A stretch of DNA of 34,480 nt from Candidatus Methylomirabilota bacterium. Lineage in GTDB: Bacteria; Methylomirabilota; Methylomirabilia; Rokubacteriales; CSP1-6. This document shows positions 1 through 7,848 of this stretch, piece by piece; position 1 is the first letter of the stretch; each line of letters opens with the position of its first letter. The position numbers and the translations under genes were made by a program. The notes beneath the pieces are model-generated. The model saw only the letters and a list, made by a program, of their open reading frames with translations, made no database searches and was not told the origin of the DNA. The stretch spans positions 1 to 34,480 of the forward strand of contig DASYTI010000241.1 of the NCBI GenBank assembly GCA_036002485.1. Direction: 5' to 3'.

Positions 1-1197
1 GATGCCGGTATCCGTCACCGAGATCTCGACGGTGCCGTCCACGAGCGCGGCGCGCACGTCGATGCGACCGCCCTCCGGCGTGAACTTCACCGCGTTCGAC
101 AGGAGGTTCAGGAGGACTTGCTTGACCTTCTGTTGGTCGCCGCGGATCTCGCCAACCCGGCCATCGACGTGCCGCTCGAGAGCGAGGCGGCGCCCTCCCG
201 CCCGCTCCCGCATGAGCAACAAGGTGTCGTCGATGGCCGGCGAGAGATGGAAGTCGTCCAGCTCCAGCTCCATGTGGCCCGCCTCGATCTTCGCCAGATC
301 GAGAATGCTGTTGATGAGCGCGAGCAGGTGGCGTCCGGCGCGCAGGACGCGCTCGAGCGGCTCAATCTCGTCCGCGCGATTGAGGTCGCGGGCGTCTTCG
401 AGCAGCAGATCAGTCACGCCGATGATGGCGTTGAGCGGAGTCCGGAGCTCGTGGCTCATGTTTGCGAGGAATTGCGATTTGTGCTGGCTCGCGGCCTCGA
501 GCTCGCGGCTCTTGATCTCGATCTCGCGGAAGAGGCGCACGTTCTCGATGGCGAGGACGGCCTGGTCGGCGAACGTCTTCAGCAGCTCGACTTGTATGCT
601 CGGAAAGAGGCCTCTCTCTTCGCGCGCGATGCTGAGCGCGCCGATACACGTATCCTCGCGCAACATGGGGACGACGATCTGGCTGTGAAAGCCGAGGATC
701 GACGCCATTCTCGACGATGGCCCACTGTACGCGGCCTGGACATCAGCGACGTGCACGATGCGGCCTTCGCGAATCGCAGGGCCAACGAGACCGCGCGTGT
801 TCGGCGTTGGGTTCGGCGTCGGGTAGATTTCATGCAATGCTGCCACCGCTTCGGGGGTGAGGTTGTAGTGCGCGGCCAGATGAATCAGCTGACCGTCGAA
901 GCGGTACACCGTACCGAAGCGGCCACGACACAGGCGCGTGGCGTGCTGCACGATGGTATCGAAGACCGGCTGGTAGTCCATGGGCGATCTGGAGATCACC
1001 CGCAGGATCTCGCTCGTCGCGGTCTGCTGCTCAAGCGCCTCGGTCAACGCGCGATCTTTCGCTTTCTCCCGCTCCAGGCTCTCCGCGAGGCGTTGCTCGA
1101 GTTCGTGAACCCGCGCCGCTCCCTCCGTCGGTGCCTTACGGGCGAGCGGTGGCGTGGCTTTCGCCTTCACCTTCGCGGGCTTTGCACGGCGACCCAT
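1..1197 (-). CDS. GAF-domain sensor histidine kinase (3' end beyond window)
   Basis: The first 399 residues are in the window and the gene runs off at base 1. After a basic, low-complexity N-terminus and a short coiled coil (about 28-60) comes a GAF sensor domain (about 75-220). A HisKA dimerisation domain follows, with phospho-acceptor His249 in MSHELRTPLN. The HATPase domain begins with the N-box LLNLLSNAVKFTP (Asn368) and the first glycine box VTDTGI lies at the window edge. No membrane segment is visible, so the protein is probably cytosolic and senses a diffusible ligand or works with other sensors. The ATG at 1197 is preceded by a good GAGGAG site. Family members often end in receiver domains, but that part is not visible here. 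The signal is unknown. Confidence 0.9.
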   Translation of the reverse strand, partial: MGRRAKPAKVKAKATPPLARKAPTEGAARVHELEQRLAESLEREKAKDRALTEALEQQTATSEILRVISRSPMDYQPVFDTIVQHATRLCRGRFGTVYRFDGQLIHLAAHYNLTPEAVAALHEIYPTPNPTPNTRGLVGPAIREGRIVHVADVQAAYSGPSSRMASILGFHSQIVVPMLREDTCIGALSIAREERGLFPSIQVELLKTFADQAVLAIENVRLFREIEIKSRELEAASQHKSQFLANMSHELRTPLNAIIGVTDLLLEDARDLNRADEIEPLERVLRAGRHLLALINSILDLAKIEAGHMELELDDFHLSPAIDDTLLLMRERAGGRRLALERHVDGRVGEIRGDQQKVKQVLLNLLSNAVKFTPEGGRIDVRAALVDGTVEISVTDTGI

Positions 1198-3181: not shown

Positions 3182-3762
3182 GCGCGCGGGGGGCGCCGGT
3201 TGGTGCCCTGCCACTCGCCGACCAGGGTCTGCGGGATCTGCAGCCGATCGAGCACCCGCGCCAGGGTATGGTCCACGAGGTCCTCGATCTGCTTGGGACG
3301 CTGATAGAAGGCCGGCATGGGGGGCAGGATCACCGCACCCATCTCGGCCAGCTGGGTGAGCATGCGTAGGTGGCCCACGTGCAGCGGCGTCTCGCGCACG
3401 AGCAGGATGAGGGGCCGGCCCTCTTTGAGGGTCACGTCGGCCGCCCGCGTCATGAGATTGTCCGCCAGACAGTGGGCCACCGAGGCCGCCTCTTTCACGC
3501 TGCACGGCGCGATGACCATGCCGTCGGTCTTGAAGGAGCCCGAGGCGATGCTCGCGCCGATGTCCTTGTTGTCATGGCGGTGGGTGGCGAGCGCCTCCAC
3601 GTCCTTCACCGCCCAGTCGGTCTCTTCCACGATGGTTCGCTTGGCGGGATCCGAGAGCACCAGGTGGGTCTCGACCCCGGGGGCCGCGCGCAGCAGCTCG
3701 AGAAGGCGTATGCCGTACACCACGCCCGAGGCTCCGCTGAGGCCGACCACGATCCGCCTCAC
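3178..3762 (-). CDS. ubiX: Flavin prenyltransferase UbiX
   Basis: The 194-residue protein matches the usual UbiX length and opens with VGLSGASGVVYGIRLLE, the flavin-binding start of the family. It also carries the conserved stretches SGSFKTDGMVIAPCS, LADNLMTRAADV and LVRETPLH, and ends with MPAFY and QIEDLVDH. UbiX attaches a dimethylallyl group to FMN to make prenylated FMN, the cofactor of UbiD-type (de)carboxylases. No ubiD gene is in this window, so the partner must lie elsewhere. The GTG start at 3762 overlaps the stop of the upstream DUF507 gene by four bases, and its own stop overlaps the glycosyltransferase start. Confidence 0.95.
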   Translation of the reverse strand: MRRIVVGLSGASGVVYGIRLLELLRAAPGVETHLVLSDPAKRTIVEETDWAVKDVEALATHRHDNKDIGASIASGSFKTDGMVIAPCSVKEAASVAHCLADNLMTRAADVTLKEGRPLILLVRETPLHVGHLRMLTQLAEMGAVILPPMPAFYQRPKQIEDLVDHTLARVLDRLQIPQTLVGEWQGTNRRPPRA

Positions 3763-4055
3763 AGGCGAAGCCTCCGCTTGAACACCTCTTCACGGGTCTT
3801 GCGGTAGAGGACGTCCCACTCGGCGCTGCCCTCGGGCGCCGGGCGCGAGTAGCTCGCGAGGGTCTTGCGCACTTCCTGATCCACCGTCTCCTCGAGACGT
3901 CCTTCCTCCTCGAGGACGCGGAAGACCTCGGTCCGGAGGTGACCGCGCACCTTGTCGTCGGCAAAGCCCCGGATGACCACGCCCTCCGTCTGCGCCAGGT
4001 CGGCCACGACCCGATCGGCGAGCCCGAAGAGACGCTCGCGGCTCATCCGCATCAC
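3759..4055 (-). CDS. DUF507 family protein, second copy
   Basis: This small, charged, mostly helical protein has 98 residues and no signal peptide or membrane segment. The pattern of an acidic EEEGRLEETVDQEV block followed by a Tyr/Ser-rich link and a basic KTREEVFKRRL end matches DUF507 (PF04368), whose function is unknown. It has the same layout as the next gene upstream (4052-4330), so the two are tandem paralogues. The GTG at 4055 overlaps the upstream stop in a GTGA; an ATG at 4052 is an equally possible start one codon later. In other genomes DUF507 genes are usually found in diverse deep-branching Gram-negative lineages (recalled). Coupling to ubiX suggests co-production, not a shown function. 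Confidence 0.85.
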   Translation of the reverse strand: MMRMSRERLFGLADRVVADLAQTEGVVIRGFADDKVRGHLRTEVFRVLEEEGRLEETVDQEVRKTLASYSRPAPEGSAEWDVLYRKTREEVFKRRLRL

Positions 4056-4330
4056 AGGACAAACCCCCGCTCCCGCGCGAGCTTGGTCTTGGCCAGGGTG
4101 AAGAGCCGCTTGTAGTCGGAGGCCGAGTCCTTGATGAGCTTGGCATTCTCCATCAAGAGCGTGGTCACTTCCGTCTCGATCTTCTCCTCGGCCAGGAAGT
4201 TCTCGGACAGGATGTGACGCACGACGTCTCGAGCCCGGGCCTCGTCCTTGATCTCGACGAGCTTGCGTCCCACGAGCCGCTTGACGACGGATTCGGCCAT
4301 CCTGCCCGCGATGTCATCGCGCCTGGACAT
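4052..4330 (-). CDS. DUF507 family protein, first copy
   Basis: The 92-residue cytosolic protein is rich in charged residues. Its layout is N-terminal basic helix, ARDVVRHILSENFLAEEKIETEV, a YKRL-containing helix, and the C-terminal block LARERGF. It matches DUF507 (PF04368), of unknown function, and it is a paralogue of its downstream neighbour. The ATG at 4330 is the first start after a recognisable promoter at 4342-4371. No Shine-Dalgarno site precedes it, and the predicted transcript leader is only about five bases, so initiation may be leaderless. It heads the operon DUF507-DUF507-ubiX-glycosyltransferase-oxidoreductase. Confidence 0.87.
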   Translation of the reverse strand: MSRRDDIAGRMAESVVKRLVGRKLVEIKDEARARDVVRHILSENFLAEEKIETEVTTLLMENAKLIKDSASDYKRLFTLAKTKLARERGFVL

Positions 4331-4393: not shown

Positions 4394-5923
4394 TCAAATC
4401 TCGGCCTCGGCCGCGGGCAGAAGCAGCCGGAACCGTGAGCCCTTTCCGGGCAGGCTTTCGACCTCCACGGCCCCGCCATGGGCCTCGGCCAGGGAGCGGA
4501 CCACATGGAGCCCGAGACCCAGTCCGGAAGCCGCCTTTGTCTCCGGATGAGCGATCCGCACGTAGCGGTCGAAGATCCGCGGCAGATCCTCGGCGGGAAT
4601 GCCAATCCCTTCGTCCTCCACGGTCAGCTCCATCGTGTCCGGGCGGTCGCTGGCGACCGCGGCGGCGACCCGGACGCGCCCACCGCGCGGCGAATACTTG
4701 ACCGCATTCGACATCAGGTTCTTGAGCATGCGATCCACCGCGTCGCGATCGGCCGACACCGCGCCCAGCCCTTCGGCCACTTGACCCTCGATGCGGTGGC
4801 GCGGGTGCTGCGAAGCGAAGAGGTCGACATTGCGCTCGACGAGCTCGCCGAGATCCACGCGCTCGGGCCGAAGCTCCAGCGGGCGCCCCGCCTCGATGCG
4901 GGAGAGATCGAGGAGATCGGTCACGATACGACCCAGACGCTGCGCCTCCGTGCGCACGTGCCCGAGATAGCGCCGCGCTTGATCGGGCGGGACGACACGC
5001 TCGAGCAGGAGCTCGCTGAAGCCCTGGAGCGCTGTGAGGGGTGTGCGGAGCTCATGGGAGACCACGGACAGGAACTCGCTCTTCGCCTGGTCGATCTCGC
5101 GCAGCCGACGGGTCGCCTGCTCGACCTTGTCCTCCAGCTCCTGGGCAAAGCGCCGCTGCTTGAGCTCGAGCTGCGCATTCTCGACGGCCAGAGCCAGGTG
5201 GAGCGCCACCTCCCGCGCCGAGCGGCAGGCGGCGGGACCGAGATCGCCGGCCCGCTCGATGGCAAGCACGCCGACGCGGCCGGCTCCCGTCTCGAGCGGC
5301 AGCACGAGGCCCCGTGACGGGGTGGGTCCGAGGACCGCCTTCACGCGCAGGCGCGGGTCGGCGTCGAGATTGACGGCCAGGATGGTCGCGCCTGTCTCGA
5401 GGGCCCGACCGGCCGCCGAATCCTTGCGAAAAGCCGCTCCGAAGGCCGTCGATCCGGCAACGGCGAGAGTCCCGTCACCGGCGCGAAGCACGAGCCCGGC
5501 ACGATCGGCCCCAAGCGCCCCGCCGACGAGGGCCACGGCCTTTTCGAGCCTGGCCTCGAGCGGCGCCTCGCCTCCCAGCGCGCGCTGGATAGCGAGGAGG
5601 GCGGCGAGCCTCGCGCCCCGCGCGCCCGCCTGGTCGACGAGGCGACCCAAGGCGATTCCAAGAACGAGAGGGGCGGCGAGCGCGACCAGCGCATCGAAGG
5701 TCGCCGGCGCGAGGCCCTCGCGCTCGATCATGGGAAATACGTGCAGCCCCTGGAACAGCCCGGCCATCAGGCCGACCAGCCCCGCCGCCGAAGAGCCCCA
5801 ATGCAAGGCTGCCCAGGCGGCCGGCACGAGATAGAGGTGACGGAGCGGTATCGCCAGGGCGCCATCCACGCTGGCCGTGGCCAGCGCGATCGCCGCAACC
5901 AGGGCGAGGGGGCCGGCAATCAT
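4394..5923 (-). CDS. Membrane-anchored GAF sensor histidine kinase
   Basis: The 509-residue protein starts with three or four hydrophobic segments (about 1-95). A GAF-like domain (about 105-250) and a coiled coil (about 250-280) follow. The HisKA domain has phospho-acceptor His290 in VVSHELRTPL. The HATPase domain has the N-box KNLMSNAVKYSP (Asn406), DEGIGIP (437-443) and GLGLGLHVV (467-475), so all catalytic boxes are intact. The ATG at 5923 overlaps the stop of the CPBP-like gene in an ATGA and has an AGGG site. Upstream reading in this frame is a shadow of that gene. The likely partner is the receiver protein encoded at 7462-7848 in the same cluster. The signal is unknown. Confidence 0.9.
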   Translation of the reverse strand: MIAGPLALVAAIALATASVDGALAIPLRHLYLVPAAWAALHWGSSAAGLVGLMAGLFQGLHVFPMIEREGLAPATFDALVALAAPLVLGIALGRLVDQAGARGARLAALLAIQRALGGEAPLEARLEKAVALVGGALGADRAGLVLRAGDGTLAVAGSTAFGAAFRKDSAAGRALETGATILAVNLDADPRLRVKAVLGPTPSRGLVLPLETGAGRVGVLAIERAGDLGPAACRSAREVALHLALAVENAQLELKQRRFAQELEDKVEQATRRLREIDQAKSEFLSVVSHELRTPLTALQGFSELLLERVVPPDQARRYLGHVRTEAQRLGRIVTDLLDLSRIEAGRPLELRPERVDLGELVERNVDLFASQHPRHRIEGQVAEGLGAVSADRDAVDRMLKNLMSNAVKYSPRGGRVRVAAAVASDRPDTMELTVEDEGIGIPAEDLPRIFDRYVRIAHPETKAASGLGLGLHVVRSLAEAHGGAVEVESLPGKGSRFRLLLPAAEAEI

Positions 5924-6747
5924 CCCTGGAGCATCCGGTATGCGGCGAAGAACGCCAGTGTCGCCAGATAGCCGGGGAGCAGGCTCCCGCTCCACGCGCG
6001 CAGGGCGCAACTGGCCAACCCAAGCAGGGTGAGATAGAAGATCACCCCTGCCGCCACCTCGGCCGTATTGGGCAAGGTGGGGTCGACCAGGTAGCGGAGC
6101 AGTCCACCCGCCGTCGAGACCGCCGCCGCCGGCCAGAACGTCCACCGTCTCCAGAGGGTGGAGAAGAGCGCGCCGTGAAACAGCCACTCGACCGACAGCG
6201 CATTGGCGCCGGCGTCATAGGCCACCGCGGCAAGGTAGGCGCGGAGGCTCGGCACCGAAGCCGTATGGCCCAGCGTCAACGAGGCCGCGATCAGGAGATG
6301 AAGACCAAGGAAGGCGCCCGCCGCCAATCCCACCACGACCTGCTGAGACGTCCGCGGCCGAGCCCATCCTATCCATCGGACATCCGAACGCGCTCGCCCA
6401 GCCTCGCGCGCCAGAACGAGGGGAACGAGAAAGTAGAGGACCGCTCCCGTCGGCACCAGCCGCGTCACCAATGACGCCGCCACCAGCACGCCGGCCAAGG
6501 CCGCGGCGGGAATCCGCCAGCGCGAGGAACCGTGGAGAGCGATGACCCAGCCGGCCGCCAGCAATCCCGCATGGCTCCACCCACTCGCCGCGGCGTGACC
6601 CAGCCCTCGCCCGCCGCCGGTCAGCGTGTCCGCCGCGAGGGATATCGCGATTCCCATGGCGGAGATGAGCGCCACCTCGAGAAGTGGCCTGCCCAGGGCC
6701 GGGTGGGCGCGCGCCGCCGGATCAAACGGCGCGGTCAGCAGGCGCAT
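5920..6747 (-). CDS. CPBP/Abi-like polytopic membrane protein with degenerate catalytic motif
   Basis: The 275-residue protein is mostly hydrophobic, with about seven or eight predicted membrane segments. The stretch VEWLFHGALF (186-195) aligns with the CPBP (CAAX protease and bacteriocin-processing) motif EExxxR. The first Glu is Val186 and the Arg is His191; only Glu187 remains. The C-terminal SGSLLPGYLATL resembles the family's last motif but lacks its usual histidine. It may be a non-proteolytic relative or an unrelated membrane protein; I treat family membership as tentative. The ATG at 6747 overlaps the HD-GYP gene by 26 bases. The stop overlaps the histidine kinase start by four bases, so the product probably acts with that sensor. 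Confidence 0.7.
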   Translation of the reverse strand: MRLLTAPFDPAARAHPALGRPLLEVALISAMGIAISLAADTLTGGGRGLGHAAASGWSHAGLLAAGWVIALHGSSRWRIPAAALAGVLVAASLVTRLVPTGAVLYFLVPLVLAREAGRARSDVRWIGWARPRTSQQVVVGLAAGAFLGLHLLIAASLTLGHTASVPSLRAYLAAVAYDAGANALSVEWLFHGALFSTLWRRWTFWPAAAVSTAGGLLRYLVDPTLPNTAEVAAGVIFYLTLLGLASCALRAWSGSLLPGYLATLAFFAAYRMLQG

Positions 6748-7477
6748 CGACGATCAGGTCCAGGAAGAGCGCGGTCAATCGAGGCTCGAGGGTCAGTCCC
6801 GCGTCATCTTGCATGACCTGGACGGCCTCTTCCCGTAAGAGCCGGCGGCGATACGGGCGCTCCGAGGTCAGCGCATCGTACACGTCTGCAATGGCGACGA
6901 TGCGCGCGCCTATGGGGATGCAATCTCCCGCCAGCCCGTCTGGATAGCCGCTGCCATCGTGGCGCTCGTGGTGGTGGCGAACGATGAGCGCGGCATCGGC
7001 GAAGAACTCGAGCGGCGCCACGATCTGGGCGCCCGTGAGCGGGTGTCGTCGCATGGCGATCCACTCCTCGGCCGTGAGGGGGCCGCGCTTGCGCAGGATG
7101 TGCTCGGGCACCCCGATCTTGCCCAGGTCATGGAGCAGCCCGGCTTCCCCAATGATCCTGACTTCGGGCCCCCCGAGGCCGGCGGCCAGGGCCAGGCGCC
7201 GCGCCAGCTCCGCCACGCGCTCGGAGTGGCCACGCGTGTACTCGTCCTTGGCCTCGAGGGCATTGGCGAGGCCGAGAAGGCTCTGGAGCACGGAGCGCTG
7301 GACCTGCCGATGGCTCCTTCTGAGATCCACGGCATAGGCGAGGGCCTGCTGATAGGCGGCCCTCAGCTTGTCGTGCGCGCGGGTTGTCTCTTCCTCGCGG
7401 GCGCGAGAAACCTCGTAGAGCGCGCGGAGGTCCCGCGCGTACGCGAGGGCCTGGGCCAGCGCTACATCGGCCGCCAT
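6722..7477 (-). CDS. HD-GYP domain protein, probable cyclic-di-GMP phosphodiesterase
   Basis: The 251-residue protein has an N-terminal coiled-coil region (about 1-65) and an HD-GYP domain (about 70-230). Metal-binding and signature residues are present: HSERV (His84), HDLGKIGVPEHIL (His116-Asp117), RRHPLTG, VRHHHERHDGSGYPDGL with the GYP at 177-179, and IADVYDALTSERPYR. HD-GYP enzymes hydrolyse c-di-GMP. No receiver domain is fused here. Instead a separate single-domain receiver gene lies directly upstream, overlapping by 16 bases, so the two together resemble a split RpfG-type regulator. The ATG at 7477 is the start. Confidence 0.93.
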   Translation of the reverse strand: MAADVALAQALAYARDLRALYEVSRAREEETTRAHDKLRAAYQQALAYAVDLRRSHRQVQRSVLQSLLGLANALEAKDEYTRGHSERVAELARRLALAAGLGGPEVRIIGEAGLLHDLGKIGVPEHILRKRGPLTAEEWIAMRRHPLTGAQIVAPLEFFADAALIVRHHHERHDGSGYPDGLAGDCIPIGARIVAIADVYDALTSERPYRRRLLREEAVQVMQDDAGLTLEPRLTALFLDLIVDAPADRAV

Positions 7478-7848
7478 GATCGCGTGTCGGGCACGAGGGC
7501 CTCGACGAGAGCCAGCAGGGCCAGCGGTGAGAACGGCTTGGTCAGATACTCGTCGGCGCCGGCGGCGCGCCCGCGCGCGCGATCGGCCTCCCGCCCGGCG
7601 GCGGTGAGCATGACGATGGGAATGCGCGCGAGGGCCGGCTCGCTCCTGAGCTGCCGGCAGACCTCGAAGCCGTCGAGGCGGGGCATGTGCACGTCGAGCA
7701 AAACGAGGTCGGGAATGGTCCGCCTGGCCACCACGAGCGCTTCCGCGCCATCAGAGGCCTCGACCACGCGGACATCGGCATCTTCGAGCGTGAAGCGCAC
7801 CAAATCCACGATGGGCGGCTCGTCGTCTACCACCAGGATGGTCGTCAT
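7462..7848 (-). CDS. Single-domain (CheY-like) response regulator
   Basis: The 128-residue protein is one receiver domain with every conserved residue: acidic pair Asp8-Asp9 in VVDDE, phospho-acceptor Asp52 in LLDVHMP, Thr82 in MLTAAG and Lys104 in TKPFS. No output domain is attached, so it must act by binding a partner. The HD-GYP gene overlapping its 3' end by 16 bases and the histidine kinase two genes on are natural candidates. The ATG at 7848 has no clear Shine-Dalgarno site. A 7-bp hairpin with arms GCGCTGG/CCAGCGC (7852-7870) lies immediately before it and may affect initiation. It is the first gene of the signalling cluster. Confidence 0.93.
   Translation of the reverse strand: MTTILVVDDEPPIVDLVRFTLEDADVRVVEASDGAEALVVARRTIPDLVLLDVHMPRLDGFEVCRQLRSEPALARIPIVMLTAAGREADRARGRAAGADEYLTKPFSPLALLALVEALVPDTRSWRPM

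Follow-up and report, generated by a model that had tools for sequence, protein, structure and literature searches.

A membrane protein gene placed between the genes of an HD-GYP c-di-GMP phosphodiesterase and a histidine kinase belongs, by sequence, to the CPBP fold family. Alignment indicates that its product has lost the catalytic positions of the CPBP proteases, and the gene is under purifying selection. We favour, with some reserve, the view that the protein is a dedicated membrane partner of the kinase encoded downstream, by analogy with Abx1 for CovS and SpdC for WalK. The gene lies in a window (the whole stretch of DNA analysed) of 34,480 nucleotides, and the features discussed below are collected in Table 1.

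Table 1. Features of the CPBP-like gene and its neighbours (nucleotide positions of the window; residue numbers of the CPBP-like protein)
Feature	Position	Strand	Remarks
CPBP/Rce1-like membrane protein gene, predicted catalytically dead	5920..6747	-	275 aa, ATG start, nine predicted helices
ATGA overlap of CPBP gene stop (TGA 5920-5922) and kinase start (ATG 5921-5923)	5920..5923	-	sequence
Residues 263-267, expected motif 4 (HxxxN) site	5947..5961	-	register uncertain
Invariant D222-P223, after helix 7	6079..6084	-	49/49
R218-Y219, Y219 aligned with the motif-2 catalytic His	6091..6096	-	Y 48/49, F 1; R218 invariant in 49
VEWLFH at residues 186-191, what is left of motif 1 (canonical EExxxR)	6175..6192	-	sequence and profile alignment
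Stretch with lineage-specific H150, Y177, D178	6214..6300	-	each 49/49
Histidine kinase: membrane part, GAF, HisKA, HATPase	4394..5923	-	Pfam domains; key residues intact
HD-GYP c-di-GMP phosphodiesterase	6722..7477	-	HD_5 E 1e-39; HD and GYP motifs intact
Single-domain response regulator receiver	7462..7848	-	phospho-acceptor Asp intact

An earlier note, made from the letters alone, had described a CPBP-like membrane protein whose reading frame overlaps both neighbours. Both statements hold: the overlap with the HD-GYP gene is 26 nt (6722-6747) and that with the kinase gene is the ATGA of Table 1. The profile search and structure comparison that the note proposed as checks likewise found the fold family. 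In the Pfam search PF02517 matched the window protein with an E-value of 8e-4 and 20.0 bits, slightly below the curated cut-off of 22.4 bits. Among the 33 aligned homologues, 32 matched the profile at E-values up to 1, the best at 3.5e-9. A PF02517 search of eight genomes of the family reported six copies, five of them above the cut-off, while the copies in G000 and G004 were not reported. When the profile of the CPBP homologues was aligned with a profile of 14 canonical CPBP proteins, hhalign gave a probability of 96%. NCBIfam and PHROGs contained zero matches for the window protein, and a search of PDB sequences with the homologue profile found no CPBP chain, the sole row being an unrelated deaminase (E 0.017). 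A scan for promoters and terminators found none, which says little.

The AlphaFold2 model, built from the 33-member alignment (pLDDT 91.8, pTM 0.89), has nine long helices and one short one. VIA-align ranked Rce1 (4cad; Z 11.4, rmsd 3.7, 207 residues aligned) first and SpdC (6u0o; Z 9.8, rmsd 2.6, 150 residues aligned) second, followed by GPCR chains with Z of 7.5 or less. Foldseek returned the same top two, with weak E-values (0.37 and 0.41) that alone are not significant. Because Z-scores under about 13 can reflect a common arrangement in helical bundles, as the tool warns, sequence-profile evidence is needed beside these structural matches. The PF02517 matches, the VIA-align ranking and the profile-profile alignment together indicate a CPBP/Rce1-like fold, and we file the protein in that family, not as a protease.

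A catalytic CPBP protease is expected to carry EExxxR with both Glu and the Arg, FxxxH as motif 2 and HxxxN as motif 4, and the present protein falls short of this pattern. Columns were tallied over 49 full-length homologues, whose profile was aligned with the 14 canonical proteins. These are every non-family row among the 20 PF02517 rows from 12 genomes searched, and they come from eight genomes, six within the family and two outside it (G037 and G038, 3 proteins). In this register V186 stands at the first Glu, E187 at the second and H191 at the Arg. The first Glu column holds A in 36 homologues, T in 5, G in 4, V in 2 and S in 2, and Glu in 0/49. The second is E in 48 and G in 1 (the sister species L034), and the Arg column is R in 47 and H in 2 (the window and L034). 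Motif 4 is harder to place, as the local profile alignment reaches no further than residue 262, and in the global one the canonical His faces a gap. If residues are counted on from the GSLxPG anchor without a gap, T263 falls on the His and F267 on the Asn, the 49 homologues having A (25), S (12), G (7) or T (5) at 263 and F (48) or R (1) at 267. However, the loss of motif 4 is independent of register, because neither His nor Asn occurs in columns 258-267 of any of the 49 homologues. The last columns of L169 and L179 are unreliable, both being damaged near the C-terminus. In the canonical controls, which are the other CPBP genes of the eight related genomes, the first Glu, the second Glu and the Arg are each kept in 14/14, the motif-2 His in 13, the motif-4 His in 14 and the Asn in 11.

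The passages of PMC11980579 drawn on here assign the first Glu and the motif-2 His to bridging the water, and the motif-4 His and Asn to the oxyanion hole. In the corresponding passages of PMC10811503, mutating E140, E141 or H173 of MmRce1 impairs activity, and the water ligands are named as the second Glu and the His. On either published account the active site is, by the alignment, gone despite the retained second Glu, and the protein reads as a dead protease. The earlier note had seen in VEWLFH that the first Glu and the Arg are replaced and one Glu is left, and had proposed a pseudoprotease. The profile alignment bears out this reading of the window, and the catalytic loss is real and deeper than noted, since the first Glu, both His and the Asn are absent in 49/49. 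The loss of the Arg does not extend to the family, however. As 47/49 keep it, the change to His is peculiar to the window and one sister species and is not the cause of the family's inactivity. A pseudoprotease is well supported because the CPBP fold is detectable and the motifs of the homologues are not intact; the flanking genes are in place in 48/48 loci. In the sister-species homologue (L034:8175-8999), where dN/dS against the window copy is 0.26, the second Glu has become Gly and the Arg His, so what remains of the motif is eroding in the window/L034 sub-lineage.

The gene nonetheless evolves under constraint. Its dN/dS was 0.24-0.35 in the seven species pairs computed, well under 1, and above that of its neighbours in most comparisons (exceptions include the kinase in two pairs and HD-GYP in one). 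Invariant in 49/49 homologues are G144, H150, Y177, D178, G180, R218, D222, P223, Y238 and R271, and 16 columns, the start Met included, are invariant among the 33. Taking helix ends from the model, eight of the ten polar helix positions conserved in at least 95% (47/49 sequences) lie in one membrane half (H150, T158, Y177, D178, N182, R218, Y219 and Y238, with H150, N182 and Y238 near the membrane middle), and E187 and R191 lie in the opposite half. The net charge is +2.8 and +1.9 at inside loops 119-133 and 202-203 and near neutral (+0.2 to +0.5) at three other inside loops; outside loops range from -0.3 to +0.9. In the model, these charges favour an extracytoplasmic position for the half with the invariant polar residues, which may form a binding site. 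A bolder version, which we hold loosely and think rather doubtful, is that the CPBP fold was turned into a receptor subunit. H150, Y177, D178, R218, D222, Y238 and R271 would then be a ligand- or proton-sensing site and the old centre would be filled by Tyr and probably Phe, giving a protease-derived sensor for a sensor-less kinase that controls c-di-GMP.

For the kinase start we took ATG 5921-5923, in preference to the GTG far upstream that the mechanical ORF list gives. The N-terminal part of the kinase matched DUF4118 in 38 of 44 homologues at E-values up to 0.1, the window copy not being among these. In its model (pLDDT 87.2, pTM 0.73) helices with short loops precede the GAF domain, and an extracytoplasmic domain is absent. 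Active residues are kept nearly everywhere: the kinase His in 48/49 (1 gap), the receiver Asp in 49/49, the HD in 50/50 and the GYP in 49/50 (1 gap), with single substitutions in up to 2/50 at other HD-GYP metal-motif positions. The receiver and HD-GYP are encoded by separate, unfused reading frames (Table 1).

Gene order was surveyed in 51 loci from 50 genomes. All 48 loci with both flanks assembled have the order HD-GYP, CPBP, kinase that the earlier note suggested looking for; the remaining three end at contig ends, two without the kinase side and one without the HD-GYP side. Five of the 48 were flagged as mixed strand because of distant receiver genes, and their kinase, CPBP and HD-GYP genes are on one strand. 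Between the HD-GYP stop and the CPBP start the median spacing is -26 nt, with less than 60 nt in 47/48, the exception being L175, where the HD-GYP match is split in two. The CPBP stop and kinase start overlap in 32/47 loci, a count biased towards overlap since the start codon nearest the stop was taken. In L169 a 742-aa open frame was considered as a CPBP-kinase gene fusion and rejected, the frame being shifted inside the CPBP gene and the kinase lying in another frame. Conserved order by itself carries little weight, since the atp, DUF507 and UbiX genes around the module show the same constancy. Positions 3759-4330 (minus strand) hold what we take to be two adjacent DUF507-type genes with a UbiX-like neighbour; the pair stays together beside the UbiX-like gene in most loci, and is also found in G037 and G038. 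A second GAF-HisKA-HATPase kinase (1-1197, minus strand) is cut by the window end. Between 12399 and 23478 are found, on one strand, OSCP (ATP synthase delta), MnmA-like, ParB and GidB genes and then, on the opposite strand, genes for DnaA, DnaN and a RecF/SMC-like protein. This gene content suggests a replication-origin region, and such a location may be part of the reason why the local order of genes varies so little.

Searched at the protein level, 60 genomes yielded 33 matches, in 33/36 genomes of the window's own family and 0/24 outside it. The phylum profile search, which covered 95 genomes of 300 asked for, placed the gene in 50/57 own-family genomes and 0/38 others. Each genome has one copy, which in G076 is split over two contigs. 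When a public genome collection was scanned for a single peptide pattern, 31 loci were confirmed, each of them under the title Candidatus Rokubacteria or Rokuibacteriota; such a scan reaches only pattern-bearing sequences, and relatives elsewhere are possible. In G037 and G038, from the same taxonomic order and other families, atpC and the DUF507 genes are about 0.65 kb apart with no receiver, HD-GYP, CPBP or kinase match between them, which makes the module look like an insertion into a gene order that was there before it. Among the seven own-family genomes without the gene, the site is assembled in G087 only; the contigs of G088 and G021 end inside the region, and AtpD and DUF507 queries were unmatched in G005, G015, G074 and G086. 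The G087 locus (L160, G087:C80, 1454-3356) reads atpC, HD-GYP, DUF507, with no receiver, CPBP or kinase match between atpC and DUF507. A search of the whole G087 assembly found no CPBP orthologue, and the best match to the kinase there, at 36%, does not rise above that of a paralogue in the sister genome G026 (35%). Since G087 lacks those three genes at this locus and keeps HD-GYP, the CPBP gene is tied to the kinase and receiver more than to HD-GYP, by a co-loss that is one event in one metagenome-assembled genome. The lone HD-GYP of G087 is also a possible natural test of that enzyme's own role.

Partial distance correlations were computed given AtpD, UbiX and one DUF507 over the 35 of 51 loci with all required genes (L024, L169, L179, L181 and L182 excluded by name). 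CPBP against the kinase core gave 0.66, the highest among module pairs. Against the kinase membrane part the value was 0.24, below those of the non-module DUF507b (0.45) and AtpC (0.32). The correlation thus supports a link of CPBP to the kinase core, and not to the membrane part, which is the expected contact surface.

From the operon structure, the one co-loss and published CPBP-kinase precedents we infer a sensor or adaptor role, and control of the kinase is in our judgement the likeliest mechanism, by a modest measure. Physical contact, sensing, the direction of regulation and the receiver-to-HD-GYP step are all conditional here. The protein would sit beside the kinase's small membrane-helix bundle, sense or relay a membrane or periplasmic cue through its lineage-specific invariant polar residues, and switch the kinase from one of its two states, kinase and phosphatase, to the other. 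Phosphate would pass from the kinase to the single-domain receiver, which in turn would govern how active the separate HD-GYP enzyme is and, through it, the amount of c-di-GMP; the comparison for this last step is an RpfC/RpfG-like route in split form. The role as kinase partner is supported by the absence of the catalytic residues in 49/49 while kinase, receiver and HD-GYP retain their key residues nearly everywhere, by the adjacency, the stop-start overlaps, the G087 co-loss and the kinase-core correlation, and by the kinase model and the Abx1 and SpdC precedents. It is weakened by the equal constancy of the flanking genes, the low membrane-part correlation, the lone HD-GYP in G087, the single genome behind the co-loss and the bias in the overlap count.

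A decaying protease pseudogene would explain the Gly at E187 in L034 and the His at R191 in L034 and the window, as well as an in-frame stop in the G093 homologue and the shifted frame in L169. However, the matches of the phylum profile search in other genomes are without internal stop, and the 16 invariant columns and the dN/dS values contradict decay; we regard this explanation as extremely improbable and reject it. Conservation could also mean that enzymatic activity survives, at an active site that has moved to lineage-specific residues such as H150, Y177, D178, E187, R218, D222, Y238 and R271, all present in 49/49 except E187 (48/49). Other roles are on record for CPBP proteins in the passages cited, DidK being reported as an esterase (PMC10811503) and LnsB as acting in lipoprotein N-acylation (PMC7387801). 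Yet small residues fill the first-Glu position, Tyr or Phe fills that of the motif-2 His, and E187 is Gly in the sister species, and we think a relocated site quite unlikely.

A stronger competitor, though still improbable to us, makes the protein a non-catalytic scaffold, or an assembly factor, whose partner is not the kinase but perhaps an envelope enzyme, as SagB is for SpdC, with the place in the operon incidental. SpdC is described both as binding kinases and as forming a complex with SagB (6u0o), and the constancy of the flanking genes' local order suits this explanation too. Against it, the immediate neighbours are HD-GYP and the kinase in 48/48 loci, and the gene is missing in G087 together with the kinase and receiver.

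In RpfC/RpfG-type systems a membrane kinase, a receiver and an HD-GYP phosphodiesterase are encoded together, the receiver being fused to HD-GYP. The present module resembles them in its intact kinase, receiver and HD-GYP residues and differs in that its receiver and HD-GYP are separate and a CPBP-fold gene stands between HD-GYP and the kinase. For the proposed partnership with the kinase, the nearest likeness is Abx1 of group B Streptococcus, a PF02517 membrane protein acting on a kinase. According to the passages of PMC3578759 drawn on here, CovS is regulated by Abx1, which binds the transmembrane domains of that kinase, and function was still restored by Abx1 carrying alanine in place of the conserved Glu and His, the authors adding that protease activity could not be ruled out. 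The protease residues are thus dispensable there but still present, whereas our protein is without the first Glu and both His; here, moreover, the kinase gene follows directly and the opposite flank is taken by an HD-GYP gene. SpdC/LyrA of Staphylococcus aureus shares the CPBP fold, the reported loss of key catalytic residues (PMC7387801) and kinase binding by transmembrane contacts. It is reported to bind WalK and nine other kinases, the transmembrane parts sufficing for WalK and SaeS (excerpts of PMC5854430), and inactive CPBP scaffolds, with the SpdC-SagB complex, are discussed in PMC12214887 as excerpted. SpdC is described with eight predicted transmembrane segments and a C-terminal region and binds 10/16 kinases, whereas our protein, in its model, has nine helices and lacks that extension, and its gene has one kinase gene as constant neighbour. 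APH-1 of gamma-secretase is likewise given as a CPBP-related, non-catalytic subunit (PMC7387801), but it is eukaryotic and belongs to a protease complex instead of a kinase, and no clear match to its structure was found (5a63_C, Foldseek E 2.7). A search of a limited literature collection for CPBP or HD-GYP in Rokubacteria, for PF02517 with histidine kinase and HD-GYP, and for CPBP pseudoproteases found nothing. The window protein resembles Abx1 and SpdC, the two studied CPBP (Abi-domain) proteins that act on kinases, and differs from them in three ways: the catalytic loss is family-wide, the pairing is constant with one kinase gene and the predicted output is an HD-GYP enzyme. Annotations often call CPBP proteins proteases or 'abortive infection' proteins. 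A lineage that has lost the catalytic positions and keeps the gene beside one kinase separates a regulatory from a protease role, in contrast to Abx1, where those residues remain. It would provide a one-kinase, one-partner system for testing how CPBP proteins act on kinases.
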